This document shows positions 18,795-62,656 of a stretch of 64,000 bases of DNA, piece by piece. The notes below the pieces were generated by a model. It had not been told where the DNA came from, did not search any database, and saw only the letters and a program-made list of their open reading frames with translations. The stretch covers positions 7,347,966 through 7,411,965 of the forward strand of contig NC_088296.1 in assembly GCF_032854445.1 (NCBI RefSeq), given 5' to 3'. The stretch comes from Liolophura sinensis (Eukaryota > Mollusca > Polyplacophora > Chitonida > Chitonidae). Both the position numbers and the translations under genes were made by a program. Each line of letters opens with the position of its first letter. Position 1 is the stretch's first letter.

Positions 18795-18825
<31 letters not shown>

Positions 18826-20531: not shown

Positions 20532-20562
<31 letters not shown>

Positions 20563-33267: not shown

Positions 33268-33435
33268 TCAACTAGCTAACTGTCTGTTTATAAGAAGCTG
33301 TCTCTCATCCGTTTCCCTGACGACCGTAGGCCCCTCCTCCTCCTCCTGCACATCCAGTTCAGGAACAGGGGGCGGAGTTTGGTATGATGGCTCGGTGACA
33401 TCTGCATGAGGCCCACCATTGGTCTTCTCTGTGAC
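33268..33435 (-). CDS. SPPL2: SPPL2 exon 15, cytosolic tail and stop
   Basis: The acceptor TTGTATGACAG precedes VTEKTNGGPHADVTEPSYQT, then a Pro-rich and Glu-rich tail (PPPVPELDVQEEEEGP), ending LLINRQLAS and TGA at 33270-33268. DERQLLI resembles an acidic dileucine sorting signal. Confidence 0.88.
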   Translation of the reverse strand, partial: VTEKTNGGPHADVTEPSYQTPPPVPELDVQEEEEGPTVVRETDERQLLINRQLAS

Positions 33436-36400
33436 CTGTCATACAAATGCATATTCATGATGGAAGTGAATGGCATATTTATTTATTTGAGTAGTGTTTT
33501 ACGCCGTACTCAAAAATATTTACTTATATGTCAGCGGCCAATATTGAAGTGGAAAGAAACGGGGCAAAGCCCAGGGGAAACACACCATTTGGAGGTTGCT
33601 GGCAGATATTCCCACGTATGGCCTGAGAGAAGGCCAGCATGGACTGGCATGTGTAATGGCTTATTGTGCAGAGTTATAAGTGTTGAAGTCTGTCATATTT
33701 TTAATTGATATTCTTAAAATTTTCATAGTTTTCCATGTGATGAACAAACAGATGACATAATCATGATAATGGTACTTGTATCACTATGGTTACAAGCCGT
33801 AGTCTCCAGCAGGTCCAAGCTGGTTCGTAACGAAGCACTTGCATTCAAACGGGAGATCACAAGCCCTCTACAAAGGGAAGCAAATCTTGTATTGACCCAT
33901 GGAACTTGTCCAACATTTATTTATTTGATTGGTGTTTTACAGTGTAATATTTCACTTATACCATGGTGCCCAGCACTACGGTGAGAGGAAACCGTTCAGG
34001 GCCCAGGAGAAACCCAGGACTATCCGCGGGTTGTTGGCAGACCTAGTCCAGACGCTTGACCGGACTCACATTAAGGTCAAGTACACTTCACCGCCATTGC
34101 TTTGGAGGTAGCATTCCGATTCGCTATTGACAAATCTCTCTTTAAATCAGCCTCCTTTTCGCACGCAGGTCAGCTATATACCGATGAATATCGTTGGTGA
34201 CCAGTCATCAGTATCACCAATATCAAATTCATCCGCCCATCTAACACTAAAATAAATCCGCAGTTAACAAAGTAAGAAACACAGAATTTAATTTCTTTCA
34301 ACCCATACGGGTGGATTGTTTGAGGGTGTGTTTGGATAACATTGTGCTTCATGTATTGGCCAAAGGCAGCGATACGGAATATTTCTCATTTTGGAAAACA
34401 TTCCCTACATGAAGAACGAAGAACTGCCTCAGTTACATTTCGTGGAGTGTGCGTCAAATCAAGACGCACTCTCCATACAGAGGTAGTGGTATTCTGTCAG
34501 GAGACAGAAGCAATTGCCCTCTCCTTAGCAGTTCTTACTTTTGGAATTCAAGAACATCTCAGTCAATGAAACAGTGACAAGTTAAGCAAAGGAGGTAGTC
34601 AGTACTAGACCCTGTGTTGTCAGATCAGGGGAGGTAACAAGAGTCTAAGTACTGGAATACTAACACACCTTTCCTACGTACAACCGGAAAGGTAACTAGC
34701 ATGAGCTGGGCTTAAACTGAAGGCGACCCTGAGAGGTTCCTGAGCCACTATGCTGAGCCAGCACAATCATCTTCGGCCAGTAAGGCCCCGGCCTGTGATT
34801 ACCAGCAGGCTGGGGTGAATTTCCTATGAACAAAAATTCCCTTGATGATCAGAAGTGCTGCATTTTATACTTACCGGGTCACCTGACCACATCATTTTCA
34901 GCTCGCGACGTTTCAGTGCCAACACGACAGTGGACAGGAGAGTGCAGGGCACGAGATACAACAACGCTGGCTGACCCGTCTCCATAAGGGCTAGGGCGAT
35001 GAATGTGATGATCAGGCCCACGCCATAGGCTGGGGACAAGCAAACAAAATCAGTCAACCTTAATGTAAAGTGACATGAATGTGATAATCAGGCCTACACC
35101 AAATGCTTCTGTTAGGAGAATTCTCAAGCGATCCCAGAAAACACACATCAGTCAGCCTTCATGTAAGGTGACATGAATCTGATAATCAGGCCTACACCAA
35201 ATGCTTCTGTTAGGAGAATTCTCAAGCGATCCCAGAAAACACACATCAGTCAGCCTTCATGTAAGGTGACATGAATCTGATAATCAGGCCTACACTCATT
35301 GGTGAGATAAAACATGCACGGCAACATGATCATAATGATCAGGCCTACACCAAATGATAGGGCAGAAAAGTCAGTCAACCTTCATGTAATGTGACATGAA
35401 CCTGATAGTCAGGCCCACACCATCGGCTGGAAACAGAAAACATCAAAGTGGAAGTCAAGGTTCATATGTGTATAAGGTGACATGAATGTAGTGATCTTGT
35501 CTACATCGTAGGCTGGGGGCAAAAAACGCAGGTGTCAGTAAATCTTGTAAGTTCACATGAATAAGACGATTAGGCCTATAGCATAGGCTGAGGACAAAAA
35601 AAAAAACATCAGTCATCCTGCATGTAAGCTGACATGAATGTGCTGATCTGGCCTACATCATAGGCTTGCAATAGAAAAGGCAAGCCCATTTACATGTTTG
35701 TGTTTGTTCTTTGGTGCTTAGCAGGTTGGTTCTACTGCTAATGTTTATAGCACTGCCTCACTGAAATGCCCAGCAGAATACACCCCATACAAGACGCCCA
35801 ATCAGTGTACAGACACCAGGCAGACCAGTTGCTTGACCTGTCCCTTTATCCTGAATGGCAATTTGCTTAGACACCAGTTAGACTTGGGCTCTCACCACAG
35901 ACACTAAAACATCTTGTTCATTGCTCTTTGGTTCCATAATAATACTGGTAAACTACGAGCCTGAGGTATTTCTTGAGTGAAATAAAACTCTGTAAGGCCA
36001 CATCAGTTTAAATTGCTGTTTTTTTTTACACCATACTCAAAAATATTTCACTTATACAACGGCTGCCAGGATTATAGTGGAAGGAAACCAGGCAGAGCTC
36101 AGGGGAGACCCACGACAGTCCGCAGGTTGCTGCCAGACCTTCCCACCTACGGCCGCAAAGGAGGCCAGCATGAGCTGGATTTGAACTCACAGCAACCGCA
36201 TTGGTGAGAGGCTCCTGGGTCATTAAGCTGTGCTAGCGCGCTAACCAACTAAGCCACGGACGCCCCTAATTGTTGTTTTTTGGACAGCAGAAATCTTGTG
36301 ACAATTTTGCCTGATAAAGACATATTAACATGATCGGGGAAACTTAAAAAACAGAAAAATCATAAAAATATCAAGACTGGAAAAAATAATGCCCAACAAC

Positions 36401-39400
36401 GAGAACTTTAGCAGACACTTGTACCGTTGTGGGTGGAGTTTTATTGTTTGAAATAATGATTGGAAAGAAAGAAAGAAAGAATCTTTTTAAGAAAGGCAGC
36501 AGGGCACAGTTTTATAAGGGGAGGGCCTAGCAAGGGGTCTGGTAAATAACGGAAATAATTGCCAAAAATATCACCAATGATTAAAAAACGGAATTTTAAT
36601 TCAAAGATTGGACGCCAGGAACATAAAATACGGAATATAATGTCAGGAATTCAGTAATTTATGGTGCTTAATATGCACACATCCAATCAACGATGGGATA
36701 TCCCCCTAATGCTAGTGTGATCCACATATATGCAAACACTCAGCTCGATACCTGCAGTACCTTTTAAGACACCACCCTAACATTTTGTTTAATGTTGCTT
36801 TCTCTGGTATTGGACCCCAATGCCAATGCTCAGGGTACGATATAAGCTATGTCTATACTCTTTGCAGGCCGGCTGAATAGGTCAATATCAGTTTTATTTT
36901 TATTCCATATCTGGATTTTTTAGTGTTGGCTTGCCACAAAACACAAAGTAAAATAAGTGTCAAGTAAATACTCAAATGTTAAAAAATACAGAATAAAGAC
37001 AGAAATTGGAGATTCCTATGTGCCAAGACACAGTTCACACCCAGCACGAAACAGACAAATATTTTTGAAAATATATTTGTGATAATCTGATAAAATTACG
37101 CAATACAATATATCACTATGAACATCATAGATCTGTACTTACCTGCTGCTCCACATAGAAAGTACACGTAAGGACATCGTACTTTACGTCCAAACCCAGA
37201 GCAGAATGAAATCAGTAACCCTGATGAAAGATAATAAAGAGGTAGTTCTATGAAAGTGTTAATTTTCAAGAAGATTGAGATGACAATATACCTAAAACAT
37301 GGAACCATGATATAGCACACTTCAGCCTACGATATCACTCACTTTGCACTATGATATCACTTGCTTCACACTATGATATCACTCACTTGGCACTAGGATA
37401 TCACTCACTTCACCCTATCATATCACTCACCTGGCACTATGATATCTCCAAAGCCCAACAGAGAATATGGCCGGTAACACATGGCAGCTAGGCTGGTGGA
37501 AAAACGTGGCACTTTGAACACCATGGGAAGCTGAAAGAGGAAAGACAAACATTACAATGTAGCAACCTCAACAACTGATCTAATGTGTATGAATGAGTGA
37601 AGCACTAGAGCGACCACTCAGGCCAAGTTTGTAGTCTTTTAAAAAATTAAAATAATTTTTAATTTGGTATAGTTTTCCAGCTGCATGCAACCACATTATC
37701 AGAAACATTAGAGTGTTACCTGTATGTACAGTGCAGTTTTGTCCTATAGCAAACAGTTGCTCCCTCTGGTCAAGTTGATAAGGCTTGTAGGATATTGTTC
37801 TTGACCTTAATCTTACCCTTAAATGAAGATATGGCCTGTAGGACATTGTTCTCGTCCTTGAGCTTACCCCTAAATGATGATATGGCTTGTAGGACATTGT
37901 TCTCGTCCTTGAGCTTACCCCTAAATGATGATATGGCCTGTAGGACATTGTTCTCGTCCTTGAGCTTACCCCTAAATGATGACATGGCCTGTAGGACATT
38001 GTTCTCGTCCTTGAGCTTACCCCTAAATGATGATATGGCCTGTAGGACATTGTTCTCGTCCTTGAGCTTACCCCCAATGATGATATGGCCTGTAGAACAT
38101 TGTTCTTGTCCTTGAGATTACCCCTAAATGAAGATATGGCCTGTAGGACATTGTTCTCGTCCTTGAGCTTACCCCCAATGATGATATGGGCATTGTTCTT
38201 GTCCTTGAGCTTACCCCTACATGATGATATGGCCTGTGGGATATTGTTCTTGTCCTTGAGCTTACCCCCAATGATGATATGGCCTGTGGGACATTGTTCT
38301 CGTCCTTAAGCTTACCCCTAAATGATGATATGGGCATTGTTCTTGTCCTTGAGCTTAACCCTACATGATGATATGGCCTGTGGGATATTGTTCTTGTCCT
38401 TGAGCTTACCCCCAATGATGATATGGCCTGTGGGACATTGTTCTTGTCCTTGAGCTTACCCCTAAATGAGGATATGGCCTGTGGGACATTGTTCTTGTCC
38501 TTGAACTTACCCCTAATTGAAGATATGGCCTGTGGGACATTGTTCTCGTATTTGAGATTACCCCTAAATGATGATATGGCCTGTGGGACATTGTTCTAGT
38601 ACTTGAGCTTACCCCTAAATGAGGATATGGCCTGTGGGACATTGTTCCCGTTCATGAGCTTACCCCTAAATGAGGATATGGCCTGTGGGACATTGTTCCC
38701 GTTCATGAGATTACCCCTAAATGAGGATATGGCCTGTGGGACATTGTTCTTGTCCTTGAGCTTACCACTAAATGATGATATGGCCTATAGGACATTGTTC
38801 TCTTCCTTGAGCTTACCCCTAAATGATGATATGGCCTGTGGGACATTGTTCTTGTCCTTGAGCTTACCCCTAAATGATGATATGGCCCGTGGGACATTGT
38901 TCTAGTCCTTGAGCTTACCCCTAAATGATGATATGGCCTGTAGGACACTGTTCTTGTCCTTGATCCTACCCCTAAATGATGATATGGCCTGTGGGACATT
39001 GTTCTCGTCCTTGAGCTTACCCCTAAATGATGACATGGCCTGTAGGACATTGTTCTCGTCCTTGAGCTTACCCCTAAATGATGATATGGCCTGTAGGACA
39101 TTGTTCTCGTCCTTGAGCTTACCCCCAATGATGATATGGCCTGTAGAACATTGTTCTTGTCCTTGAGATTACCCCTAAATGAAGATATGGCCTGTAGGAC
39201 ATTGTTCTCGTCTTTGAGCTTACCCCCAATGATGATATGGGCATTGTTCTTGTCCTTGAGCTTACCCCTACATGATGATATGGCCTGTGGGATATTGTTC
39301 TTGTCCTTGAGCTTACCCCCAATGATGATATGGCCTATAGGACATTGTTCTCTTCCTTGAGCTTACCCCTAAATGATGATATGGCCTGTGGGACATTGTT

Positions 39401-42400
39401 CTTGTCCTTGAGCTTACCCCTAAATGATGATATGGCCCGTGGGACATTGTTCCCGTTCATGAGATTACCCCTAAATGAGGATATGGCCTGTGGGACATTG
39501 TTCTTGTCCTTGAGCTTACCACTAAATGATGATATGGCCTATAGGACATTGTTCTCTTCCTTGAGCTTACCCCTAAATGATGATATGGCCTGTGGGACAT
39601 TGTTCTTGTCCTTGAGCTTACCCCTAAATGATGATATGGCCCGTGGGACATTGTTCTAGTCCTTGAGCTTACCCCTAAATGATGATATGGCCTGTAGGAC
39701 ACTGTTCTTGTCCTTGATCCTACCCCTAAATGATGATATGGCCTGTGGGACATTGTTCTCGTCCTTGAGATTACCCCTAAATGATGATATGGCCTGTGGG
39801 ACATTGTTCTCGTCCTTGAGCTTACCCCTAAATGAAGATATGGCCTGTAGGACACTGTTCTTGTCCTTGAGCCTACAGCTAAATGATGATATGGCCTGTG
39901 GGACAATTGTTCTCGACCTTGAGCTACCACTAAATGGTGATATGGCCTGTGGGACATTGTTCTCGTCCTTGAGATTACCCTAAATGATGATATGGCCTGT
40001 AGGACATTGTTCTCGTCCTTGAGCTTACCACTAAATGGTGATATGGCCTGTGGACATTATTCTCCTCCTTGAGCTTACCCCTAAATGATTGATATGGCCT
40101 GTGGGACATTGTTCTTGTCCCTGAGCTTACCCCTAAATGGTGATATGGCCTGTGGGACATTGTTCTTGTCCTTGAGCTTACCCCTAAATGATAATATGGC
40201 CTGTGGGACATTGTTCTCGTCCTTGAGCTTACCCCTAAATGATGATATGGCCTGTGGGACATTGTTCTCGTCTTTTAGCTTACCCCTAAATGAGGATATG
40301 GCCTGTGGGACATTGTTCTTGTCCTTGAGCTTACCCCTAAATGATAATATGGCCTGTGGGACATTGTTCTCGTCCTTGAGCTTACCCCTAAATGATGATA
40401 TGGCCTGTGGGACATTGTTCTTGTCTTTTAGCTTACCCCTAAATGAGGATATGGCCTGTGGGATATTGTTCTTGTCCTTGAGCTTACCCCTAAATGAGGA
40501 TATGGCCTGTGGGACATTGTTCTCGTCCTTGAGCTTACCCCTAAATGATGATATGGCCTGTGGGACATTGTTCTTGTCCTTGAGCTTACCCCTAAATGGT
40601 GATATGGCCTGTGGGACATTGTTCTTGTCCTTGAGCTTACCCCTAAATGATGATATGGCCTGTGGGACATTGTTCTCCTCTTTGAGCTCACCCCTAAATG
40701 ATGTTATGGCCTGTGGGCATTGTTCTCGTCCTTGAGCTTACCTCTAAATGATAATATGGCCTGTAGAACATTGTTCTCGTCCTTGAGCTTACCCCTAAAT
40801 GATGATATGGCCTGTAGGACATTGTTCTTGTCCTTGAGCTTACCCCTAAATGGTGATATGGCCTGTAGGACATTGTTCTCGTCCTTGAGATTACCACTAA
40901 ATGGTGATATGGCCTGTGGGACATTGTTCTTGTCCTTGAGCTTACCCCTAAATGATAATATGGCCTGTGGGACATTGTTCTCGTCCTTGAGCTTACCCCT
41001 AAATGATGATATGGCCTGTGGGACATTGTTCTCCTCTTTGAGCTTACCCCTAAATGATGATACGGCCTGTGGGACATTGTTCTCGTCTTTGAACTTACCC
41101 CTAAATGATAATATGGCCTGTAGAACATTGTTCTCGTCCTTGAGCTTACCCCTAAATGATGATATGGCCTGTGGGACATTGTTCTCGTCTTTGAGCTTAC
41201 CCCTAAATGATGATATGGCCTGTAGGACATTGTTCTTGTCCTTGAGATTACCCCTAAATGAGGATATGGCCTGTAGGACATTGTTCTTGTCCTTGAGCTT
41301 ACCCTTAAATGATGATATGGCCTGTGGGACATTGTTCTTGTCCTTGAGCTTACCCTTAAATGATGATATGGCCTGTAGGACATTGTTCTTGTCCTTGAAC
41401 TTACCCCTAAATGATGATATGGCCTGAGGGACATTGTTCTTGTCCTTGAGCTTACCCCTAATTGATGATATGGCCTGTGGGACATTGTTCTCGTCCTTGA
41501 GCTTACCCGTAAATGATGATATGGCCTGTGGGACATTGTTCTCGTCCTTGAGCTTACCCGTAAATGATGATATGGCCTGTGGGTCATTGTTCTCGTCCTT
41601 GAGCTTACCCCTAAATGATGATATGGCCTGTAGGACATTGTTCTCGTCCTTGAGCTTACCCCCTAAAGGATGATATGGCCTGTGGGTCATTGTTCTCGTC
41701 TTTGAGCTTACCCCTAAATAATGATTATGGCCTGTAGGACATTGTTCTTGTCTTTAAGCTTACCTATTGATGACCTTTAATTTTGTCCATGACTAATTTG
41801 CCCAAGATGTGCTTGGAACATGGGATGATATTCAAATGAAAAATTGTATATTTCAGCAATAAAAAATAATATTTTGAGACACTTATTTGCACTTTAGTGG
41901 GCAAAATTTTAGCTCATTTCCAAACTTGTGTATGTGGCTGAAGTAAAGAAGCGGAGTAGAGTGAGTGAGTGTGTGAGTGAGTGAGTGAGTAAGTGCTTGA
42001 GGTTTAAATCACAGTTATCCATTTTTCAGTTCTCATCAACTAAAAACACAAATGTACTATATGTCATGGGTGAAGGAAACTGAGTGCCCATCATCCTTTT
42101 TTTTGGAACAGTAATCCAGATGTTCAATTTGTAAGTTCTTGCTACCAACTAAAAAACACAAATGTACTATATGTCATGGGTGAAGGAAACTGGAGTGTCC
42201 ATCATCTCTATTTTGGAACAGTAATCCAGATGTTCAATTTGTAAGTTCTTGCTATCAACTAAAAACACAAATGTACTATATGTCATGGGTGAAGGAAACT
42301 GGAGTGTCCATCAATCTCTATTTTGGAACAGTAATCCAGATGATCAATTTGTAAGTTCTTGCTATCAACTAAAAACACAAATGTACTATATGTCATGGGT

Positions 42401-51400: not shown

Positions 51401-54400
51401 CTTCACGCATGGTGATAACCAGTAGAGTGTACCAGGACTCCATACATGGTAATAACGAGTACAGTGTACCAGGGCATCATACATAGTGATAACCAGTACA
51501 GTGTACAAGGGCTTCACACATGGTGACAACCAGTACAGTGTACCAGGACTTCACACATGATAACCAGTACAGTGTACCAGGACTCGATACATGGTGATAA
51601 CCAGTACAGTGTACCAGGGCTTTACACATGGTGATAACCAGTACAGTGTACCAGGGCTTCAGACATAATGATAACCAGTACAATGTACCAGGGCTTCACA
51701 CATGGTGATAACCAGTACAACGCATCAGGGCTTCACACAGTGATAACCAGTAAAGTGTAACAGGGCTTCACACATGGTAATAACCAGTAGAGTGTACCAG
51801 GACTCCATATATGGTAATAACCAGTACAGTGTACCAGGGCTTCACACATGGTCATAACCAGTAGAGTGTACCAGGACTCCATACACAGTAATAACCAGTA
51901 CAGTGTACCAGAGTTTCACACATGGTGATAACCAGTACAGTGTAGCAGGGTTTCACACATGGTGATATCCAGTAGAGTGTACCAGGGCTTAACACACGAT
52001 AACCAGTACAGTGTACCAGGGCTTCACACATGGTGATAACCAGTACAGTGTAATAACCAGTACAGTGTACCAGGACTCGATACATGGTGATAACCAGTGC
52101 AGTGTACCAGGGCTTCACACATGATGATGACCAGTACTCACCCAGATAGTCATACAGGAAGTACAGCGCCAACGGCACACCACACATGATGACCTGTACT
52201 CACCCAGATGGTCATACAGGAAGTACAGCGCCACCAGCACACCACACATGATGACCAGTACTCACCCAGATAGTCATACAGGAAGTACAGCGCCAACGGC
52301 ACACCACACATGATGACCAGTACTCACCCAGATGGTCATACAGGAAGTACAGCGCCACCAGCACACCACACATGATGACCAGTACTCACCCAGATGGTCA
52401 TACAGGAAGTACAGCGCCAACGGCACACCACACATGATGACCAGTACTCACCCAGATGGTCATACAGGAAGTACAGCGCCACCAGCACACCACACATGAT
52501 GACCAGTACTCACCCAGATAGTCATACAGGAAGTACAGCGCCAACGGCACACCACACATGATGACCAGTACTCACCCAGATAGTCATACAGGAAGTACAG
52601 TGCCACCAGCACACCACACATGATGATAACCAGTAACACCAGGTGTTTTAATCCTAGATTAACACTTCCTTCATCTTCAGATTTTGGGTGATCATCAACA
52701 ATCTTTTCCTCGCCCGGACGCATCAGGTGCGGACGTTTTCTGAGAAATCTGCAAAATGATAAAAGAAAACTTTGTGGTGAGGCTAACAAAAGAGCTTGAC
52801 TGTTGACACATGGATGCAAAACTTCAGCTCAATAAAGTCATGAAGCTGTGAATTTTTGAATTTACGGTATTAATATGAAAACGTCCTCCTGGTGAAAGTT
52901 GTGCTTTACAAGTTGGCAAATCTGCAGCTCTTTTTAAGACACTACCCCTAACATTTACTTTGACATGGCTTTCCCCGTTAATGGATACCGAAACCAACAC
53001 CAAGCCTTGGCATATGACATCAGGTATGCCTGTAATTTGTGAAGGTGAGCTAATACATTTACAAAAAATAAGAAAAAAATAAAGAAATCCTAGATGTGAA
53101 CTGTACACATTTTTTTTCGCACCTAGTTACTTTAACTGCTATCACTGTTTGTCTATCTTGCCCCAAGAATGTGATCATAAGCCAAACTTTATTTGTACAT
53201 GTATATTTATTTCTTTCTTTGATTACTGTTTTATGCTGAACTCAAGAATATTTAACTTACACGACAATGGCCAGCATTATGATGGGAGGGAGCCGGCAGA
53301 GCCTGGCGGAGACACACGACCATCCGCACGTGGCTGTCAAACCTCCCCACTTACGGCCGGAGAGGAAGCCAGCATGAGCTGGGCTCGAACTCACAGCAAC
53401 CGCATTGGTGGGAGGCTTCTGGGTCATTACGCTGCGCTAGCACGCTAACCGACTGAGCCAAGGATGCCCCCGAATAAACACCTAGGAACACCTTTCAAAG
53501 ACCATTAAACAGCTCATCTTTGCAACATGTGTCAAGAATTGTGTTGACTAAGATTTATTTATTTCACACATATATCACTGAGTTTTAAGCAGTACTCAAT
53601 AACATTTTACTTCTACGATAGTGGAGAGCATTATCACGACCATCTGCAGGCTGCTGGAAGACCTTCCCATGTAGATGTATGTTGTGAGAGCAAACCAGCA
53701 TGACCTAGACTTGAATTCACAATGATCATATCGGCGGGAGGCACCTGGGTCATTTTGCTGTGCTAACACGCTAACCTCTTAGTGCGCATGGTCTAAGATG
53801 TGCTGATTACAATGGTTTAAGTTACGAGGGAGGAGACAAATATTTCACTTACTGTGAGAAAGTGATGTTCCCTGCCCAGTGGCTTCCGATCACGACGCAG
53901 ATCATAGCGATCAGCCAGATTAAAATCATATTAAGATCAGCTTTCGGAGGGTCCGGAGAAAACAGCCGCACTTGAATCTTGTCAATGCCTAATTTCTGTC
54001 GGGTATATCAAAACAATCATCCATCAATCAAGTCAACAGCAAACCTGAAAGTAGGTATCTCCTGTTTTTGGAGAATGGAGGTATTAAACTGATATATTTA
54101 ATTATTTGGTTGGAATTTTAAGCCGTACTCAAGAATGACAATGGTGGACAGCATTATGGTGAGAGGAAACCAGGCAGAGCCTGGGGAAACCCATAGATTG
54201 ATATAGTCCAATTACACAATATTAATTCAAAGTTACTTTGACCAAATTACCTTTGTTCATTATTAGGTAATATAGACAATATGGGTCTTGACAAACTGTG
54301 TCCAATATATTCTGAATCACCTGGGTCTAGGAAGTTTATTTTTTGCCATCATGTCTTTGTGTTTGCATGCCAGCCTACCTGTCTGTATGTCAGAAAAAGT

Positions 54401-57400
54401 TGTGCATAGATTATGGTAAACTTTTTGTACATTTAGCTGTCGTGGACATTTGTGCATTTAGCTGTCGTGGACATTTGTGCATTTAGCTGTCGTGGACAAC
54501 TGTGCATTTAGCTGTCCTGGACATTTGTGCATTTGGCTGTCGTGGACATTTGTGCATTTAACTGTCGTGGACATTTGTGCTACTGGAAAGCCCTTTACAT
54601 GTACCCTAATTTCTCAACTTTTTTGCATGTGAAAGAGAGCAACACTCATTGCAATTTATACACAATTTTATTTTGATTTTAAAGACAAAACTAGTATAAG
54701 TATAAAAATACAATTTTTATCATTCAACACAAAATAATGCGTTCATAACATGTTTGAATAAACAGCTTGTAAACATGCAAAAAGCCAGAAGAACTGCATT
54801 ACATATACTGTACTTACTTACTTCAGCGCACTGAAAACACTAAAACTTGGTATGTATGTACGTATGTATGCTTGTACGTACGTATGTATGTATGCTTGTA
54901 TGTATGCATGTATGTGTGTACATATATGTAAGTATGTATGTATGTATATGCATGTATGTATGTATGTATGTATGCTTATATGTATGCATGTATGTATGTA
55001 TGTATATATATGCATATGCATGTATGTATATATATGCATATGCATGTATGTATGTATGTATGTATGTATGTATATGTATGTATATGTATGTATGTATATG
55101 TATGTATGCTTGTTTGTATATGCATGTATGTATATGCATTCATGTATATGCATGCATGCATGCATGTGTGTATGTGCGTGTGCGTGTGTGTGTGTGTATG
55201 TATGTATGTATGTATGTATGCATGTATGTATGCTCAGGATTTTATGTAGTATGTCTAACCATTAGGCCACCGAAGCAGTCCTGGAATTTGGTAAACAAAC
55301 CTGAAAGTCAGCGAAATCCTTTTCAGACACCATGGCCACAGTGATGTTGATGTCCAATGTCTTGTTCACACCTGGCGTCGTCTGTAGCACAAATATAAAT
55401 AAGATTAGTTTGACAGGCAGCAATACATCAAGAACAATAACCTTAACATGCAAACTAGTTAAAACATGTTAGATATGTGAAGGTCATCAATTTTGTATAT
55501 GTGTATATATATGGTAATTGACAAATATGCAAGGCATCAATAATGGAACATCCAGCTTGTGCTATTGTGTTTGTATGTACTAAAATTCTTCAATCTTTTC
55601 TCACGTTTACACCATGTTTATTTAAGCATATTCTGAGGGCATTATTCTGTGCAGACTGCTAAAATTATAATTTTGGTGAAGCCCTGAAACTGGCCAACCC
55701 AACCCATGTAGTTTTGTCTCCAAAATCAAATTGAAAACGTGCATAATTTGCACTGAAAGTTGCTATTTTATATGTGAAAAGGTTGAGGAATTAGGGAATG
55801 CAAAAACCTTAGCTCAATATATTCAGTACCGTAATTAAGCATTCCCTATCATATCTACACAGCTAGCCAATCAGTATCGATTACGTGTCCATTCAACATT
55901 GAATTTTTGTATCGGTAATACAAAAATTAAGGGTAATTAACATGCACAATGAACATCAACAATGGAACATTTCCCCTCATGCTGTTATGTGCTACAAGTT
56001 TGCAAAACTTGAGCTCAGTACATGTAGTACTTTTCAAGATACCACACTAAACATTTTGTTTGGCATTCCTTTCTCTTTAAGTGATGCCAACACCAACACT
56101 CGGGGTGATGAAAGCTAAGAATGGTAGTTGACCCTCACCTGAATTGTGTGTGTCTACTGAGGGTTACAATGCTTTAACACTGTTTCAGCTTAGTTGTGTG
56201 CGTCTACTGGGGGTTACAATGGTTTAACACAGTTTCAGCTGAATTGTGTGTGTCTACTGAGGGTTACAATGGTTTAACACAGTTTCAGCTGAATTGTGTG
56301 TGTCTACTGAGGGTTACAATGCTTTAGCACCATTTCAGCTGAGTTGTGTGCGTCTACTGGGGGTTACAATGCTTTAACACTGTTTCAGCTGAATTGTGTG
56401 TGTCTACTGAGGATTACAATGCTTTAACACTGTTTCAGCTGAATTGTGTGCGTCTACTGGGGGTTACAATGCTTTAACACTGTTTCAGCTGAATTGTGTG
56501 TGTCTACTGAGGGTTACAATGCTTTAACACAGTTTCAGCTGAATTGTGTGTGTCTACTGAGGGTTACAATGCTTTAACACTGTTTCAGCTGAATTGTGTG
56601 TGTCTACTGAGGGTTACAATGCTTTAACAGTTTCAGCTGAATTGTGTGTGTCTACTGAGGGTTACAATGCTTTAACACAGTTTCAGCTGAATTGTGTGTG
56701 TCTACTGAGGGTTACAATGCTTTAACAGTTTCAGCTGAATTGTGTGTGTCTACTGAGGGTTACAATGCTTTAACACAGTTTCAGCTGAATTGTGTGTGTC
56801 TACTGAGGGTTACAATGCTTTAACACAGTTTCAGCTGAATTGTGTGTGTCTACTGAGGGTTACAATGCTTTAACACTGTATCAGCTGAATTGTGTGTGTC
56901 TACTGAGAGTTACAATGCTTTAACACAGTTTCAGCTGAATTGTGTGTGTCTACTGAGGGTTACAATGCTTTAACACAGTTTCAGCTGAATTGTGTGTGTC
57001 TACTGAGGGTTACAATGCTTAAACACAGTTTCAGCTGAATTGTGAGTGTCTACTGAGGGTTACAATGCTTTAACACAGTTTTAGCTGAATTGTGTGTGTC
57101 TACTGAGGGTTACAATGCTTTAACACTGTATAAGCTGAATTGTGTGTCTACTGAGGGTTACAATTCTTTAACAGTTTCAGCTGAATTGTGTGTGTCTACT
57201 GAGGGTTACAATGCTTTAACACAGTTTCAGCTGAATTGTGTGTGTCTACTGAGGGTTACAATGCTTTAACACAGTTTCAGCTGAATTGTGTGTGTCTACT
57301 GAGGGTTACAATGCTTTAACACTGTATAAGCTGAATTGTGTGTCTACTGAGGGTTACAATTCTTTAACAGTTTCAGCTGAATTGTGTGTGTCTACTGAGG

Positions 57401-60400
57401 GTTACAATGCTTTAACACAGTTTCAGCTGAATTGTGTGTGTCTACTGAGGGTTACAATGCTTTAACACTGTATAAGCTGAATTGTGTGTCTACTGAGGGT
57501 TACAATTCTTTAACAGTTTCAGCTGAATTGTGTGTGTCTACTGAGGGTTACAATGCTTTAACACAGTTTCAGCTGAATTGTGTGTGTCTACTGAGGGTTA
57601 CAATGCTTTAACACAGTTTCAGCTGAATTGTGTGTGTCTACTGAGAGTTACAATGCTTTAACACAGTTTCAGCTGAATTGTGTGTGTCTACTGAGGATTA
57701 CAATGCTTTAACACTGTATCAGCTGAATTGTGTGTGTCTACTGAGGGTTACAATGCTTTAACAGTTTCAGCTGAATTGTGTGTGTCTACTGAGGGTTACA
57801 ATGCTTTAACACAGTTTCAGCTGAATTGTGTGTGTCTACTGAGGGTTACAATGCTTTAACACTGTATCAGCTGAATTGTGTGTGTCTACTGAGGGTTACA
57901 ATGCTTTAACAGTTTCAGCTGAATTGTGTGTGTCTACTGAGGGTTACAATGCTTTAACACAGTTTCAGCTGAATTGTGTGTGTCTACTGAGGGTTACAAT
58001 GCTTTAACACAGTTTCAGCTGAATTGTGTGTGTCTACTGAGGGTTACAATGCTTTAACACTGTATCAGCTGAATTGTGTGTGTCTACTGAGGGTTACAAT
58101 GCTTTAGCACCATTTCAGCTTAGTTGTGTGTGTCTACTGAGGGTTACAATGCTTTAACACTGTTTCAGCTGAATTGTGTGTGTCTACTGAGGGTTACAAT
58201 GCTTTAACACTGTTTCAGCTGAATTGTGTGTGTCTACTGAGGTTTACAATGCTTTAGCACCATTTCAGCTTAGTTGTGTGTGTCTACTGAGGGTTACAAT
58301 GCTTTAACACTGTTTCAGCTGAATTGTGTGTGTCTACTGAGGGTTACAATGCTTTAACACTGTTTCAGCTGAATTGTGTGTGTCTACTGGGGGTTACAAT
58401 GCTTTAACACTGTTTCAGCTGAATTGTGTGTGTCTACTGGGGCTTACAATGCTTTAACACTGTTTCAGCTGAATTGTGTGCGAACAGTTTTCAAAAAATT
58501 TGTCCAATCGACTTGAACTCATAGCAACTGCATTGGTAAGAGATTCCTGGGTCATTACAACGTGCTGGCACAATAACCACCTCGGCCACGGAGGCCGCTA
58601 TACCAGTTCTGATCGATGATTAAAAGGCTGGGGGTGGGGGTATTGGTGGGTGGGGGAAGGGATCATACCATTGCCTGACTGGGGGTGTTAACCACCAGAA
58701 GGCCAATCGCTCCATGTTCCTGGGCAAGATGTGCTTTCTCTGAGAAGGAACAATTTCCTCGTAGAACTGTCACCAGCTTCTCGCTGACATCATTGTCATA
58801 AATGGGGGTACCTTGACAGCCCAAATCTGTTGAAAAATCTACGACATTTTCCGGTTTCTGAAAGTGAGAGATAAATACACAGATCACTGCCTTATTCACT
58901 ACAATAGTAACTTGATCAGTGTTTTATGGAATATTCAAGAATACTTCACTTACAATGCCAGCCAGCATTATGGTGGAAGGAAACATGGCAGAACTTGAGA
59001 GAAACACATAACCAAGTTGCTGGCAGACTTTCCCACATAGGATTGGAGAGGAAGCCAGCATAGGATTGGAGAGGAAGCCAACATAAGCCAGACTTCATCC
59101 CACAGGGATCACACTGGTGAGAGGCTAACTGATGACTTCATGTTTCATGACCAAAATACAGTTATCAAATCTGGGTAGCTTGGAAAATAGGAAACTGGGA
59201 TAAAATATACATATACACACGATATATACACTCATGTTCAAGAAAATATCTAATCAAAAAAAAAAACAGGAGATACTTTTGATCACATAAATAGAATTAT
59301 CAGTATAATAAAGTGAGACTCTAACCCTGGAATATGGGGGTCTCAATCATTGTTTTTTTGTTCAGAATTTGTCAACCTGTTAATATATGGATAACAGTCT
59401 ATAGTTGCCCCTTAAATTTGTTAAATTTATTATAGCTGAATGATTTTAGGTATTTAGGTCTGGCATTTTGGTCTTTGATTGTATCTAAAATCAGCAGAAA
59501 TCTCCTCTGATTACCATATTTCACCTAAAGTTTGGTATACCATTTAGAAATACACTTCAAGAAATGCATAAAGGCTTTAAAATAATCTTTTTGATGCCAA
59601 GACTTTAAAAGTTTTTCAAATACGAAATTAATCAATATTCTTGGGGATGAATCAGTCAAAATCAAGAAAAATGTGCAATTTGAAAAACGCTAAGTTTTGG
59701 GGGAAACACAGAGTATATTATTCCAAAAATTTCTCACAATTTGGATAATGTAACTACAGATCGAGTACCAACAAGAAAACCAGATTTGGTGTTCACAATT
59801 TGGATATTACATTGCTTTTCCTGAATATGCCTACTAAAAATCTTAGAAAGAATTACTGATCATTTTGAAAAGTATATCTATTTAAAATTTATTCAACACA
59901 TGGAATTTTTCACTTGTATGACAGTGGTCAATTTTTATGGACGGAGGAAATTTACACAGCTGGGATTAAACCACAAGCCTTTGAAGGGTATGTGACAAAC
60001 CTGAGCACTTAAAAGCCACAGCTGAAACATTCAAAGCCGGATTCCGAATAGATTAAAACATACAACCTCACTGGTCTAGGGCTGGATGGTTGCAGTGAAC
60101 CAGCATTTTAACCGTGTCAGCATGGTCCCGAAAAGTATAATCATGCAGAGAAATGCATACAGAGAATTATTCGTCAAAATCAGCATGACTAGCAAAAGAG
60201 AGTTTTTGAAATAAGCCTCACTCACAGCATCCTCCAGTGTTTTGGGCAGAGCTTTGAAGTCAGGGTTGTAAAATATACAGGCAGAAACCTGTGTTGATGC
60301 GTCTCCAATCACTTCTCCAACCAACAGTCCATTATCAGCTTGTACCTGGCAAACAGAAACCAATCACAAACTTAAATAAGACGTAGAATTTACATGTAGA

Positions 60401-62656
60401 GTTGTTTAAAGAAGTTTATTTAGAATTTAGTTGGAAGCTTTTAATGCCAACCCTTAGTCGGATTTTAAAAAAAAGCATAAGGTCTTTAAAGAAGTGGATT
60501 TCAAAATGAACGCTGATGGCGAGCCCGCTTTGGTACCTTCAGAGTTTTCACAGTAAACCTGGCAACAAAACTGCACGTGAATTACGACGTCATTGATGAT
60601 GGTAGTTAAATAGACCCCACTTTAACACACTAAATACTCATGACAAGTGTGTTCTTAAGTCTGGTAAATGGACTTACTAAGTTCTGTTACCTATCTCTAG
60701 AGCCAAGAGTGACTTAGTGTCAACAATATGTAAATTATTGTCGCAAACACAAACAGGGTGAGTTACACCACCAGCCTATGTACTTTCAGAGATACATGTA
60801 CATGTATATGAGCCTGTAGCCAAAATACTGTCAATATAGAAATTAGTGAAAGATTGCACTGAGAAATGAAGAACATGTAGAAATGTGCTGGGACAAACAG
60901 GAAGGTGAGCTTAATGGAAACCTGTCAATCGCCTGGCAGCAAGACCTTGACGTCATTTTACTGGCTTTAAATGTTCCTTTCCCAGCTCATCATGATGGCA
61001 TCACATTAATTTATTTATTTATTTGATTGGTGTTTTACTCCGTACTCAAAAATATTTCACTTATACGATGGTGGCCAGCATTTTGGTGGGAGGAAAATGG
61101 GCAGAGCCCGGGGGAAACCCACAACCATCCGCAGGTTGCTGGAAGACCTTCCCACTTACGGCAGGAGAGGAAGCCAGCATGAGCTGGACTTGAACTCACA
61201 GCGACCGCATCGGTGAGAGGCTCCTGGGTCATTACGCTGCGCTAGCGCGCTAACTAACTGAGCCTCGGAGGCCCCAAACGTCACATTAGAGAGAGTAGGA
61301 TGTTACAATAGAAACTGATACATCGTAACGGTGTAGACGTTACGCTATAATCCATTCTTGATGTAGCAATGGTTTGAGGTTCTGCTTCACACTAGCGCCA
61401 CTTCACGAGATTAAAAAATATGCCGCTCCCCATTGTCATGAGCGTTAAGTCTTTGGGAGTTTGATTTTGACACCAGAGGCCACTTTCACAAAACTTCATA
61501 AATCAATTTTTCATAACTTTTCTCGTAAATGACGTTGCTTTATGGCACTATAACCTAGATCTTTAACGAAAAACAGAAATTTTAAGATTTTGAGAAAGCA
61601 ACCCCAGCTCTTATTCCATAAGACTGCACGGAAGGTGGAGATCATGCGATTCCCCTTGTGTAGGCTAGGACAGAATGGACATTACATGTTGAAGCAAGCT
61701 GACACTGGCTGATGTTTGCCACTCCTCAGCAACCACATGCTGTGGCAAAATTCTGGCAATTATAGAAATTAAACCAAGACACTGTCACTGAGAGCAATTC
61801 AAAACTATGCATTTTCCTATATGCTACACCATTTGGTTGAAATTTTTTTTCTCCTCAACCCATCTGTTACTAAGGAGATCAAGTGGTCTCTCTAGCTTCT
61901 GAGAGATCTTTCAGAAAGCTTTTTGCATGCTGTCACTGCATATGTCAGAAAAAGCTTGTGTCCCTCAGGAAAGACTATAATTGTACCCGAACACGTAGTT
62001 ACATGTACATTTGTTTTATTTATTTGACTGTTGCTTTACATCATACTCAAGAATATTTCGCTTATACGATAGCAGCTAGCATTATGGTGGGAGGAAATGG
62101 GGCAGAGACCGGGAAAACCCACGACCATCCGCAGGTAGAGGACAGACCTTCCCACATACGGCCGGAGAGAAAGCCAGCATGAGCTGGACTTGAACTCACA
62201 GCGACCACATTGGTGAGAGACTCCTGGGTCATTACGCTGCGCTTGCACGCTAACCAACTGAGCCACGGAGGCCCCTCCGCAGATTGATGACAGACCTTCC
62301 AACATACAAAACACATACAGATGAGATTGATCAAGCAATGGTTATTCCTAGTCTCTGCCCATTAAAGCCCTTTAGCTTTACCGCAAAGAATACTGCTTTA
62401 AATAATACACAACTCATTTTATAATCCTATGTCACATACATGATGTTATAAGTGAACACATTCAATTTCACAGACCAAACTGGAAAAACGAAAGTTGTAA
62501 CAAAAGTAACAAAAACTGCACTGGCAGTCTTCGAAAGCACGGGCAACATCAATAGCCTAGCCTAATGGAATCGTGACTTAGGATCACATTTTCATTCAAA
62601 AAAATTAAAACTACCTTTGAAGACAAAATAACAACGACAAACAAAATCAACTTCAT
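33268..62656 (-). CDS. SPPL2: Signal peptide peptidase-like 2 (intramembrane aspartyl protease)
   Basis: Fifteen exons on the - strand: 62656-62615, 60345-60226, 58857-58669, 55381-55301, 53995-53853, 52748-52576, 49720-49627, 48107-47994, 46894-46813, 44036-43962, 42902-42844, 37530-37431, 37220-37143, 35029-34875, 33435-33268. The product is about 557 residues: hydrophobic N-terminal signal (MKLILFVVVIL), PA domain (about 55-120, LRGNCSF), then the multi-TM protease. Catalytic motifs are FFYDIFF (Asp359), LLGFGDIIVPG (Asp420) and QPALLYLVP (PAL 471-473). The C-terminal tail is acidic. Order and sequence match animal SPPL2A/B, which cut the membrane stubs of type II proteins after shedding in lysosomes and at the cell surface. 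One exon (42844-42902) is a base short; otherwise all phases fit. Confidence 0.95.
33475..33650 (-). repeat. SINE family A, 5'-truncated
   Basis: Reverse orientation within SPPL2 intron 14: TTTATTTGAGTAGTGTTTTA, GCCGTACTCAAAAATATTTA, ending near AGAAGGCCAGCATGGACTGG; head missing. Confidence 0.8.
33914..34055 (-). repeat. SINE family A, 5'-truncated
   Basis: ATTTATTTGATTGGTGTTTT then GTAATATTTCACTTATACCA, GAGAGGAAACC and ATCCGCGGGTTGTTGGCAGA; the head is missing. Confidence 0.8.
34875..35029 (-). CDS. SPPL2: SPPL2 exon 14, PAL motif
   Basis: The acceptor CTTGTCCCCAG and donor GTAAGT bound 155 nt (AYGVGLIITFIALALMETGQ then PALLYLVPCTLL). The PAL motif closes the active site in presenilin-type proteases. 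The start of this exon is the source of the repeat at 35030-35690. Confidence 0.95.
35030..35690 (-). repeat. Tandem repeats built from the acceptor edge of SPPL2 exon 14
   Basis: About eight degenerate copies of the exon start (plus-strand form GACATGAATGTGATAATCAG then GCCTACACCA) follow the real exon edge (GAATGTGATGATCAGGCCCA then CGCCATAGGC). Copies start near 35071, 35169, 35267, 35325, 35392, 35477, 35551 and 35627. The middle three have a 98-bp period. Several keep an AG acceptor before the copied exon (TCCTCAGCCTATGC, GCCCCCAGCCTACG). Confidence 0.82.
36013..36266 (-). repeat. SINE family A, nearly full length
   Basis: From CCATACTCAAAAATATTTCA to the tRNA-like head CTAACCAACTAAGCCACGGA then CGCCCC, reverse orientation, in SPPL2 intron 13. 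Confidence 0.88.
37143..37220 (-). CDS. SPPL2: SPPL2 exon 13
   Basis: A 78-nt exon, phase 1 to phase 1, encoding GLLISFCSGFGRKVRCPYVY then FLCGAA, a transmembrane segment and loop after the GFGD motif. Acceptor TTTCATCAG, donor GTAAGT. Confidence 0.93.
37326..37430 (-). repeat. 22-bp tandem repeat copied from the donor edge of SPPL2 exon 12
   Basis: Five units directly follow the exon 12 donor. In sense, each holds a version of GATATCATAGTGCCAG plus GTGAGT, which is exactly the last 16 bases of the exon and its splice donor. Some units keep GTGAGT, one has GCAAGT-like sequence. Confidence 0.85.
37431..37530 (-). CDS. SPPL2: SPPL2 exon 12, GFGD catalytic motif
   Basis: 100 nt; acceptor CCTCTTTCAG, donor GTGAGT. 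It encodes LPMVFKVPRFSTSLAAMCYR then PYSLLGFGDIIVP. Asp420 of GFGD is the second catalytic aspartate of the family. Confidence 0.95.
37780..41766 (-). repeat. Minisatellite, 51-bp unit, about 78 copies
   Basis: The plus-strand unit is GGACATTGTTCTCGTCCTTG, AGCTTACCCCTAAATGATGA, TATGGCCTGTG. It fills most of SPPL2 intron 11. Since 51 is 17 codons, it stays open for up to about 330 codons in several frames on both strands; these are not genes. In sense each unit has CCACAG before GCCATAT and GGG before GTAAGC, an acceptor-like and a donor-like site around about 20 bases. The stretch TAC.GGCCATAT with GGG resembles part of exon 12. Confidence 0.95.
41955..42035 (-). repeat. SINE family B, 3' fragment
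   Basis: (GAGT)n then AGTGCTTGAGGTTTAAATCA and TTTTTCAGT, directly beside the 110-bp tandem repeat. Confidence 0.65.
42036..42610 (+). repeat. Minisatellite, about 110-bp unit, 5 copies
   Basis: The unit has CAACTAAAAACACAAATGTA, CTATATGTCATGGGTGAAGG, AAACTGGAGTGTCCATCATC, TTGGAACAGTAATCCAGATG. Copies are nearly identical, so recent. In SPPL2 intron 11. Confidence 0.92.
42844..42902 (-). CDS. SPPL2: SPPL2 exon 11 with an apparent one-base deletion
   Basis: The acceptor GTGTGCACAG and donor GTAAGTG bound 59 nt. Both neighbouring junctions are phase 0, so 60 nt is expected. The start reads SGESVM in frame, as in the family motif before VEVATG; after that VEVATGGGSSSGEQ appears one frame over. 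The missing base is at ATG-TGGAAG, where one G seems lost. This is either an assembly or sequencing error or a real frameshift. Confidence 0.88.
42987..43253 (-). repeat. SINE family A, full length
   Basis: Reverse orientation with a small insertion in the tail region (CACACTGTTTTATGCCATTG). The flanks have AATCTCAGATAC at 42962 and AATCTCTGATAC at 43256, a likely target-site duplication with one mismatch. Confidence 0.85.
43427..43690 (-). repeat. SINE family A, full length
   Basis: TTTATTTGATTGGTGTTTTA to the head GCTAGCACGCTATCGAACTG then AGCCATGGAGGCCCCC, reverse orientation. Confidence 0.9.
43818..43902 (+). repeat. 17-bp tandem repeat, 5 copies
   Basis: CATTAATGCATTCTGTT repeats five times just downstream (gene sense) of exon 10. 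It does not match the exon. Confidence 0.85.
43962..44036 (-). CDS. SPPL2: SPPL2 exon 10, YD catalytic motif
   Basis: 75 nt, phase 0 both sides; acceptor CTTTTTCAG, donor GTGAGT. It encodes ACTILLVLLFFYDIFFVFIT then KLFTK. Asp359 of YD is the first catalytic aspartate. Confidence 0.95.
44092..44187 (+). repeat. SINE family A, 3' fragment
   Basis: AATGCTGGCCCCAGCTGTAT, AGTAAAATATTCTTGAGCAC and an AAATAAATAAA tail, plus orientation (antisense to SPPL2). Confidence 0.75.
45453..46812 (-). repeat. 32-bp tandem repeat copied from the donor edge of SPPL2 exon 9, about 42 copies
   Basis: In sense each unit reads CTGCAG, GTTACCGAGTTTGAAG, GTGAGTGGTA. The 16-base core is the end of exon 9 (last codons ending LPSLK) and is followed by the exon's own donor, here repeated in most units. 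CTGCAG before it looks like an acceptor. A higher-order repeat of about 192 bp (six units) is visible near 45711, 45902 and 46095. Confidence 0.93.
46813..46894 (-). CDS. SPPL2: SPPL2 exon 9
   Basis: 82 nt; acceptor GTATTTGCAG, donor GTGAGT. It encodes YAWILQDLMGVTFCIFMLKT then IRLPSLK, a conserved transmembrane segment and loop of SPPL2 proteins. The real donor is the first of a long series of copies. Confidence 0.94.
47285..47612 (-). repeat. SINE family B, full length
   Basis: Reverse orientation from AGTGCTTAGGATAAAACGTC to the tRNA-like head CAAACTGAGCCATCAGGATC then GG. Confidence 0.85.
47678..47946 (-). repeat. SINE family A, full length
   Basis: Reverse orientation; head AACCAACTGAGCCACGGAAG. 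It ends about 50 bases before SPPL2 exon 8. Confidence 0.9.
47994..48107 (-). CDS. SPPL2: SPPL2 exon 8
   Basis: 114 nt; acceptor TCTTTTTCAG, donor GTAAGT. It encodes IPPSRIPLLSHQPQVKSLVL then LALCFTVGITWAVERNA, loop plus transmembrane segment. Confidence 0.94.
48281..48551 (-). repeat. SINE family A, full length, with 13-bp target-site duplication
   Basis: Head CAACTGAGCCACGGAGGTCC. The duplication TATTGCTGTATGA stands at 48268-48280 and 48552-48564. One of the best-preserved copies. Confidence 0.93.
48565..48628 (-). repeat. SINE family B, 3' fragment
   Basis: GTGAGTGATTGGGCC, TTATGTCGTACGTCACAATT and GCAGTCATATGACAAC; only the 3' end. Confidence 0.65.
48668..48823 (+). repeat. SINE family A, 5'-truncated
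   Basis: TGGGAAGGTCTGTCAGCACC through GTCGTATAAGTGAAATATTT to a TAAATAAATA tail, plus orientation. Confidence 0.8.
49273..49529 (+). repeat. SINE family A, full length
   Basis: Plus orientation: tRNA-like head with CACAGTTGGTCAGCACG (box A region) and AAGTTCAAGTCCAGC (box B region), then the conserved domain and a (AAAT)n tail. Confidence 0.9.
49627..49720 (-). CDS. SPPL2: SPPL2 exon 7
   Basis: 94 nt; acceptor TTCCCCAG, donor GTAAGC. It encodes VYIIIVVFCIAGSTSLYNCI then WPWVENLQPLAR, a transmembrane segment close to SPPL2A/B. Confidence 0.94.
49884..50012 (-). repeat. SINE family A, 5'-truncated
   Basis: TTGAATGATTGGTGTTTTTT, CCAGCATTATGGTGAGAG and TATCTGCAGGTTGCTG; head missing. Confidence 0.75.
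50142..50622. repeat. Composite fold-back of SINE family B
   Basis: 50142-50260 is the 3' end in reverse; about 50268-50445 is the head and core in plus orientation; 50440-50622 is the head and core in reverse. The two inner parts form an inverted repeat of about 170 bp (GGTAGATCCAGGATCAATCC against ATGATCCTGGATATACC). Confidence 0.8.
51070..52131 (-). repeat. Minisatellite, about 37-bp unit, about 29 copies, related to SPPL2 exon 6
   Basis: The plus-strand unit is CACACATGGTGATAACCAGT then ACAGTGTACCAGGGCTT. In sense, CTGGTTATCACCATGTGTG matches the exon 6 stretch CTGGTTATCATCATGTGTGG. Copies vary in length by loss of a few bases. Confidence 0.92.
52132..52575 (-). repeat. 62-bp tandem repeat copied from the donor edge of SPPL2 exon 6
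   Basis: Seven further copies of the exon end and donor follow the true one at strict 62-bp spacing (CACCCAGAT at 52139, 52201, 52263, 52325, 52387, 52449, 52511; real donor 52573). Each holds about 45 bases of exon (GTGTGGTGTGC to TATGACTATCTGG) plus GTGAGTACTGG. Two variants (CCAACGGC and CCACCAGC) alternate, so the larger unit is 124 bp. All units are almost identical. Confidence 0.96.
52576..52748 (-). CDS. SPPL2: SPPL2 exon 6, first protease-domain helix after the lumenal part
   Basis: 173 nt; acceptor CATTTTGCAG, donor GTGAGT. It encodes FLRKRPHLMRPGEEKIVDDH, an acidic stretch, then LVLLVIIMCGVLVALYFLYD. Eight equal donors follow; only the first keeps the frame into exon 7 without a stop seen. 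Confidence 0.93.
53204..53470 (-). repeat. SINE family A, full length
   Basis: From TTTCTTTGATTACTGTTTTA to the head CGACTGAGCCAAGGATGCCC, reverse orientation. Confidence 0.9.
53552..53788 (-). repeat. SINE family A, diverged
   Basis: AGCAGTACTCAATAACATTT, ACGACCATCTGCAGGCTGCT and TGGGTCATTTTGCTGTGCTA follow the element in order with many changes and a deletion. Confidence 0.75.
53853..53995 (-). CDS. SPPL2: SPPL2 exon 5, end of lumenal domain and first TM
   Basis: 143 nt; acceptor ATACCCGACAG, donor GTAAGT. It encodes KLGIDKIQVRLFSPDPPKAD then LNMILIWLIAMICVVIGSHW and AGNITFS, with an N-glycosylation motif NIT. Confidence 0.94.
54101..54193 (-). repeat. SINE family A, 3' fragment
   Basis: TTGGTTGGAATTTTAAGCCG, CAGCATTATGGTGAGAGGAA and AGAGCCTGGGGAAACCCA. 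Confidence 0.75.
54427..54576 (+). repeat. 25-bp tandem repeat, 6 copies
   Basis: GTGCATTTAGCTGTCGTGGA then CATTT repeats six times with few changes, in SPPL2 intron 4. Confidence 0.93.
54850..55240 (+). repeat. (TATG)n microsatellite, imperfect
   Basis: A stretch of nearly 400 bases of TATG, TATATG, CATG and GTGTGT repeats. Overlapping open frames on both strands (Tyr/Val/Cys/Met and His/Tyr/Ile/Thr) are artefacts. It ends about 60 bases before SPPL2 exon 4. Confidence 0.95.
55301..55381 (-). CDS. SPPL2: SPPL2 exon 4
   Basis: 81 nt, phase 0; acceptor GTGCTACAG, donor GTTTGT. It encodes TTPGVNKTLDINITVAMVSE then KDFADFQ, the end of the lumenal PA-domain region, with NKT and NIT glycosylation motifs. 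Confidence 0.9.
56141..58480 (+). repeat. Minisatellite, 50-bp unit, about 47 copies
   Basis: The unit is GAATTGTGTGTGTCTACTGA, GGGTTACAATGCTTTAACAC, AGTTTCAGCT. Variants (AGTTTC, TGTTTC, TGTATC, CATTTC, and shortened 46-48-bp forms) recur in groups, showing block duplication. In SPPL2 intron 3. No match to an exon was seen. Confidence 0.96.
58506..58599 (-). repeat. SINE family A, head fragment
   Basis: GACTTGAACTCATAGCAACT, TTCCTGGGTCATTACAACG and CACCTCGGCCACGGAGGCCG; the 3' part is missing, next to the 50-bp array. Confidence 0.8.
58669..58857 (-). CDS. SPPL2: SPPL2 exon 3, PA domain
   Basis: 189 nt, phase 0; acceptor TCACTTTCAG, donor GTATGA. It encodes the PA-domain core (LVTVLRGNCSFSEKAHLAQE then HGAIGLLVVN); NCS is a glycosylation motif at Asn89. 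The PA domain lies in the lumen. Confidence 0.95.
58912..59126 (-). repeat. SINE family A, diverged, with small internal duplication
   Basis: GATCAGTGTTTTATGG, CAGCCAGCATTATGGTGGAA and a duplicated ATAGGATTGGAGAGGAAGCC; head incomplete. Confidence 0.75.
59127..60225. other. SPPL2 intron 2, mostly unique AT-rich DNA
   Basis: A very degenerate SINE A piece may lie near 59890-59990. No coding sequence recognised. Confidence 0.4.
60226..60345 (-). CDS. SPPL2: SPPL2 exon 2
   Basis: 120 nt, phase 0; acceptor TCTGTTTGCCAG, donor GTGAGT. It encodes VQADNGLLVGEVIGDASTQV then SACIFYNPDFKALPKTLEDA, like the start of the mature SPPL2 lumenal domain (FYNP, ALP.TLE). Confidence 0.93.
61009..61280 (-). 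repeat. SINE family A, full length, with target-site duplication
   Basis: The best full copy: tail TTTATTTATTTGATTGGTGT, central GGGGGAAACCCACAACCATC, box B complement GGACTTGAACTCACAGC and head CTAACTGAGCCTCGGAGGCC. TCACATTA stands at 61001-61008 and 61281-61288. Confidence 0.94.
62011..62275 (-). repeat. SINE family A, full length
   Basis: From TTATTTGACTGTTGCTTTAC to the head CAACTGAGCCACGGAGGCCC, reverse orientation, in SPPL2 intron 1. Confidence 0.92.
62615..62656 (-). CDS. SPPL2: SPPL2 exon 1, start codon and signal peptide
   Basis: 42 nt from ATG to AAG with donor GTAGTT (weak). It encodes MKLILFVVVILSSK, a short signal peptide core that continues into exon 2. The frame and position fit; no further ATG lies in frame close by. 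Confidence 0.82.

Follow-up and report, generated by a model that had tools for sequence, protein, structure and literature searches.

The window, by which we mean the whole 64,000-nucleotide stretch of DNA analysed, carries on its minus strand a gene for a signal peptide peptidase-like 2 protein (SPPL2), whose introns hold tandem arrays beside several of the exons. The gene, the exons concerned and the arrays are as follows, with the sources of each array call in brackets.

33268-62656, minus strand: SPPL2 (signal peptide peptidase-like 2), 15 exons, with PA and Peptidase_A22B domains
34875-35029, minus strand: exon 14, whose edge is copied in the acceptor-side array
35030-35690, minus strand: exon 14 acceptor-side array, 8 degenerate extra copies (copy list)
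37300-37430, minus strand: 22-bp array on the donor side of exon 12, with 4 clear extra copies and degenerate remains (TRF, edge test)
37431-37530, minus strand: exon 12, whose end is repeated in the 22-bp array
37776-41764, minus strand: 51-bp array in intron 11, internal control without exon match (p=0.38 for edges, p=0.43 for exons)
45455-46812, minus strand: 32-bp array on the donor side of exon 9, with 42 extra copies (TRF, edge test, copy list)
46813-46894, minus strand: exon 9, whose end is repeated in the 32-bp array
51083-52123, minus strand: 37-bp array from the exon 6 interior, without a splice site, in intron 6 after the 62-bp array
52124-52575, minus strand: 62-bp array on the donor side of exon 6, with 7 extra copies of the exon end plus GTGAGT donor (TRF, edge score, copy list)
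52576-52748, minus strand: exon 6, copied in part into the 62-bp and 37-bp arrays
56135-58480, minus strand: 50-bp array in intron 3, internal control without exon match (p=0.39 for edges, p=0.45 for exons)

The exon model has GT/AG borders in 14 of 14 introns, and Pfam PF04258 and PF02225 were matched in the product of exons 1-10 (PA, Peptidase_A22B). When 7994 candidate proteins were scored, the closest named ones among the best 120 of 1622 matches listed were SPPL2B of Haliotis, Tubulanus, Owenia and Lingula, at 45-46% identity; a Branchiostoma record within the same 120 of 1622 had 41%. The window gene was placed outside the group of three chordates (SH-aLRT 99) in a tree of 25 rows, of which 21 are non-chordate, 15 of these being named and all protostomes, with no echinoderm, hemichordate or cnidarian included; within those 25 rows it had no supported sister group. 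On the identities given above, an amphioxus origin of the window was rejected; the host is taken as a non-chordate and, from the ranking of the protein matches, as probably a lophotrochozoan. Exon 11 (42844-42902) is one base short of whole codons relative to its orthologues and the frame is broken as sequenced, the missing base being either a sequencing or assembly error or a real allele. Rfam, at its gathering thresholds, and ARAGORN returned no matches.

Other repeats occur outside and inside this gene. On the plus strand, a TRIM-like gene (4181-11802) with Pfam matches to RING, B-box and SPRY has a long intron with a 43-bp and a 42-bp array that contain GTGAG/GTAAG inside their units. Nested direct duplications of 0.3-1.8 kb occupy 14600-23000, with ~87-95% identity and offsets of, for example, 1318, 1404, 1737 and 3055; some of the duplicates hold a palindromic 57/60-bp repeat with GATCCCGTT (14618, 16019). 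At 23269-23731, outside recognised genes, a 64-bp array repeats the donor-like CATCAGGTAATG on the minus strand and has no recognised source exon. Finally, a SINE-like dispersed element of ~255 bases gave 21 matches in the window, the query included and many of them partial (for example 48291-48545, 61016-61270 and 47687-47940), which we take to have a tRNA-like start and to resemble molluscan SINEs.

Intronic arrays copied from exon edges

We confirmed that four intronic arrays of SPPL2 consist of the adjoining exon's own edge together with its splice site, copied in tandem. This had been proposed in a first-pass annotation of the window, and it is borne out by own-edge best matches, by scores above those of shuffled sequence and by copies that could be listed singly. 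TRF, which is blind to exons, delimited arrays that reach into exon 6 (52124-52626), exon 9 (45455-46831) and exon 12 (37300-37446), and placed another next to exon 14 (35042-35295). In the edge test, each of 14 array units was compared with the full set of 28 exon edges, and 200 dinucleotide shuffles served as its control. For four of the 14, the top match was the edge that the array itself adjoins. The exon 6 donor edge scored 98 (top shuffle 32), the exon 9 donor edge 46 (top shuffle 26) and the exon 14 acceptor edge 36 (top shuffle 27), each at p=0.005, the floor of 200 shuffles; the exon 12 donor edge, the weakest of the four, scored 26 and was equalled by one shuffle (top shuffle 26, p=0.010). 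The claimed likeness of array to exon was thus upheld against shuffled controls in all four cases.

Nine of the remaining ten array units gave p values from 0.13 to 0.95. A 22-bp array upstream of SPPL2 (63713-63922) matched the edge of exon 9, which it does not adjoin, at p=0.045, and among whole exons it again matched exon 9 (p=0.015); we rejected it as an exon 9 copy and ascribe the similarity to multiple testing. The 51-, 110-, 17-, 25-, 50- and 23-bp arrays of SPPL2 were likewise rejected as hidden exon copies, neither edges nor exons scoring above shuffles. The exon comparison did not extend to the microsatellites or to the 57/60-bp, 419-bp and 18-bp arrays. Neither array of the TRIM-like gene matched its own adjoining edges: the best p values were 0.91 and 0.03, the latter between the 42-bp array and a non-adjoining edge, which we attribute to multiple testing, 16 arrays having been tested.

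A scan that ignored the arrays compared 28 pairs of an exon and a flanking intron, with antisense and 30-shuffle controls. In the sense orientation, the downstream side of exon 6 scored 94 against a shuffled maximum of 28, the downstream side of exon 9 scored 38 against 24, and the upstream side of exon 14 scored 39 against 29. The downstream side of exon 12 reached 26 against 22, under the preset flag, and among the other pairs only the upstream sides of exons 8 and 12 exceeded their shuffled maximum (24 against 23). Antisense scores were 14-19 for the four array pairs. Mapping the exons back to the introns, the check that had been suggested for the first-pass claim, therefore makes exon 6 downstream, exon 9 downstream and exon 14 upstream stand out, with a weaker signal downstream of exon 12.

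The four arrays listed in the first-pass annotation do not include the 37-bp array of intron 6, which is likewise derived from exon 6. TRF gives this array 26.5 copies at 51083-52052. Against exon 6 it scored 46 (shuffle mean 18.1; p=0.002, the floor of 500 shuffles), and the next exon scored 17. The comparison with exon edges alone gave p=0.13, and alignment to the 62-bp unit was weak, with a score of 23 (shuffle mean 15, top 31).

Structure of the copies and the sites they carry

In the exon 6 array, eight donors, including the true one, follow one another at an exact spacing of 62 bases, all of them GGGTGAGT, and GT is kept in 7/7 extra copies. Identity is 98.7% at an offset of 124 bp versus 95.2% at 62 bp, and two unit types are found, mostly in alternation. 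The 32-bp unit of exon 9 joins 17 bp of exon end to 15 bp of intron start. GT is retained in 33 of its 42 extra copies and GTRAGT in 26. Copies nearer the exon are more exon-like (Spearman -0.47, permutation p=0.0015), and identity in the distant part of the array is 0.64 at an offset of 384, 0.61 at 32 and 0.57 at 192. Conservation across this unit is 0.930 for the donor hexamer, 0.863 for the exonic part and 0.842 for the intronic part, and the hexamer ranks second among the 32 six-base windows. The exon 9 array therefore has no sign of decoy erosion and lends no support to the earlier suggestion of weak purifying selection against the addition of decoy sites.

At exon 12, the 22-bp unit comprises 16 bp of exon and 6 bp of donor, and GTGAGT occurs in 3/4 clear copies at 22-base spacing. 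The copies at exon 14 join the acceptor to the 31 bases that open the exon and carry 5-9 mismatches in the 31; AG is kept in 6/8, and three have a T-rich tract plus CAG. Their spacing runs from 55 to 98 bp. The value of about 98 bp given in the first-pass annotation holds for only 2/8 steps and does not describe the spacing overall; apart from the 98-bp pair, the array is degenerate. Elsewhere in the window, the exon 14 pattern was found on the same strand at one site, with 11 mismatches, and on the opposite strand at none.

When the outermost copies are taken as the exon edges, the protein alignment with 24 orthologues from molluscs to mammals, 18 of them named, has no gap at junctions 6/7, 9/10, 12/13 and 13/14. 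This is consistent with the outermost copy being the true exon edge, and we infer that it is probably the site used in splicing. Extension to any of the other donors alters the reading frame or ends it. At exon 6, the first decoy adds 62 bases, which are open but shift the frame, and the other six add a stop. At exon 9, a stop is present from the first decoy on, and every decoy extension has one because the longer extensions contain the stop of the first decoy. At exon 12, a stop lies in 4/4 extensions. Scored with a donor weight matrix built from SPPL2's own 14 donors, decoys equal or exceed the true donor in 7/7 cases at exon 6, 22/42 at exon 9 and 0/4 at exon 12; these counts are unchanged when the matrix omits the donors of exons 6, 9 and 12. 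Exons 6 and 9 offer a natural test of splice-site choice: the spliceosome has to select one of 8 donors at exon 6 and one of 43 at exon 9, many of which have equal scores, and at both exons nearly any wrong donor choice would bring a stop.

Origin of the arrays and comparison with known systems

The first-pass annotation knew of no named class for such arrays, and in this it was mistaken: minisatellites at exon-intron boundaries have been described in amphioxus as "mirages", in the parts of the literature compared here (PMC3087553, PMC3902484). We consider it likely, judging from the sequence, that the four SPPL2 arrays are mirages, that is, minisatellites whose founding unit by chance straddled an exon-intron junction. 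On this reading the arrays would need no function. A tandem duplication of 22 to ~100 bp over a junction would have given the intron side a second exon edge with its splice site. The two ends of the exon 9 array, an exonic ATCAG and the TGCAG that precedes unique intron, would fit a founding duplication between short CAG repeats. The copies would then have expanded by slippage and unequal exchange, processes whose marks, established for minisatellites, are alternating types, multi-unit periods and gradients. The alternation at exon 6, the period of ~192/384 bp at exon 9 and the more exon-like copies near that exon are all features of the observed copy structure and argue for such an expansion. 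If splicing stays on the exon-adjoining site, the remainder would be left as plain intron, and the arrays could persist and spread because the extra copies are ignored; splicing to a decoy donor would in nearly every case lead to a premature stop and would presumably be selected against. Minisatellite growth is evidently general here, since SPPL2 also has intronic minisatellites without an exon match.

What the four units have in common is limited to the donor consensus or to runs of 7-13 bases, in a comparison made without a shuffle control. The four events therefore look independent, in agreement with the first-pass annotation. Their placement is less easily reconciled with blind seeding. 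With its arrays collapsed, SPPL2 has 19,082 bases and 28 edges, and four of 11 arrays (microsatellites omitted) span an edge, compared with 0.74 expected under uniform placement; the P value of 0.004 overstates the surprise because SPPL2 was selected for its pattern. The excess is more than blind seeding predicts, though in a gene chosen for showing it. For the same reason, the local junction-duplicating process put forward in the first-pass annotation gains support from this count that is suggestive only. In a more general form of that idea, junctions would be preferred seeds of tandem amplification in the genome, with co-transcriptional R-loops, pausing or splice motifs, for example, favouring slippage or template switching. 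The excess of edge-spanning arrays speaks for such a preference, as do the four unlike units, which would represent four separate events, the involvement of donor and acceptor sides alike and the fifth array, likewise derived from exon 6. However, this is a single gene, selected for its pattern, and the two big arrays of the TRIM-like gene match neither adjoining junction; we therefore regard the preference as doubtful. Somewhat more doubtful still is the wider proposition that junction hotspots exist in some animal lineages, shared by cephalochordates and this non-chordate, and feed decoys and at times new introns. Were junctions preferred seeds, one gene could gather several independent junction satellites.

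Chance founding followed by expansion must also be weighed against retention of the extra sites for a function, with decoys holding U1 snRNP or tuning intron retention, and premature-stop transcripts serving as an off switch. The many decoys at exons 6 and 9 that match or outscore the true donor would suit such a role, as would the high conservation rank of the exon 9 hexamer and the stop or frameshift that follows from any donor decoy of exons 6, 9 and 12. Conservation is slightly higher in the hexamer than in the remainder of its unit, which counts against plain drift, though the copies are non-independent. Yet none of the exon 12 decoys is as strong as the true donor, GT has been lost from 9/42 decoys at exon 9 and AG from 2/8 at exon 14, and the motifs would survive by recent homogenisation alone, so that we judge a function improbable. 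We give almost no credence to chance similarity or an assembly fault. The base missing from exon 11 indicates that the assembly may contain errors, and support is weakest at exon 12 (p=0.010), but edge scores of 98, 46 and 36 stand above the best of their shuffles, antisense scores are 14-19 in the four pairs, and the differences between copies are ordered, which would be unexpected for a looped assembly.

The preferred reading, minisatellites founded by chance across junctions, can be set beside known cases. The founding paper on mirages reportedly dates from 2002. A minisatellite is also said, by the title of a 1995 article in Nucleic Acids Research cited in PMC2572611, to provide multiple splice donor sites in a human interferon-induced transcript. 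Its units, so far as that title describes them, carry splice donors as those of the SPPL2 arrays do; there the donors are provided to a transcript, whereas the SPPL2 copies are known from sequence alone. Internal tandem repeats in human segmental duplications have units of ~30 bp on average, and half are in coding exons and some at exon-intron boundaries; manual inspection left 27 intron modifications, and boundary repeats may form new introns, with transcript support, according to the portion of that study compared (PMC2812944). The SPPL2 units are likewise of minisatellite size and lie at exon-intron boundaries, but, unlike the human repeats as described there, they leave a true exon edge that fits the orthologues unchanged, with the copies in the intron.

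The closest resemblance is to amphioxus, where Adh3, the globins BflGb6 and BflGb9, PGBD5 and troponin C have tandem duplications at boundaries that were called or likened to mirages in the excerpts compared (PMC3087553, PMC3902484), and where mirages have been suggested to supply the raw material of new introns (PMC3087553). As in those descriptions, the SPPL2 arrays are minisatellite copies of a boundary, each tandem unit containing the exon end and neighbouring intron with its splice site, taken from the donor side (exons 6, 9 and 12) or the acceptor side (exon 14). Their units of 62, 32, 22 and 55-98 bp fall inside the 10-160 bp given for amphioxus (PMC3087553). Many copies, not all, keep the splice dinucleotide (GT in 7/7 at exon 6, 33/42 at exon 9 and 3/4 at exon 12; AG in 6/8 at exon 14), and concerted evolution within the array is apparent from the two unit types at exon 6 and the multi-unit period at exon 9. 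Mirages are further characterised by undisturbed regular splicing and by length polymorphism with somatic instability; for SPPL2, where the analysis covered a single sequence, the protein is conserved over the four junctions. The SPPL2 case differs from the amphioxus mirages, as these are portrayed in the same excerpts, in its non-cephalochordate host, whose SPPL2 has 41% identity to the Branchiostoma record and groups outside the chordates (SH-aLRT 99), and in having four arrays in one gene, with up to 42 extra copies. As far as the literature compared here goes, the non-chordate host and the four cases per gene are new, and cases in other animals may exist. Four mirages in one non-chordate gene suggest that amphioxus is not the only lineage in which the process operates.
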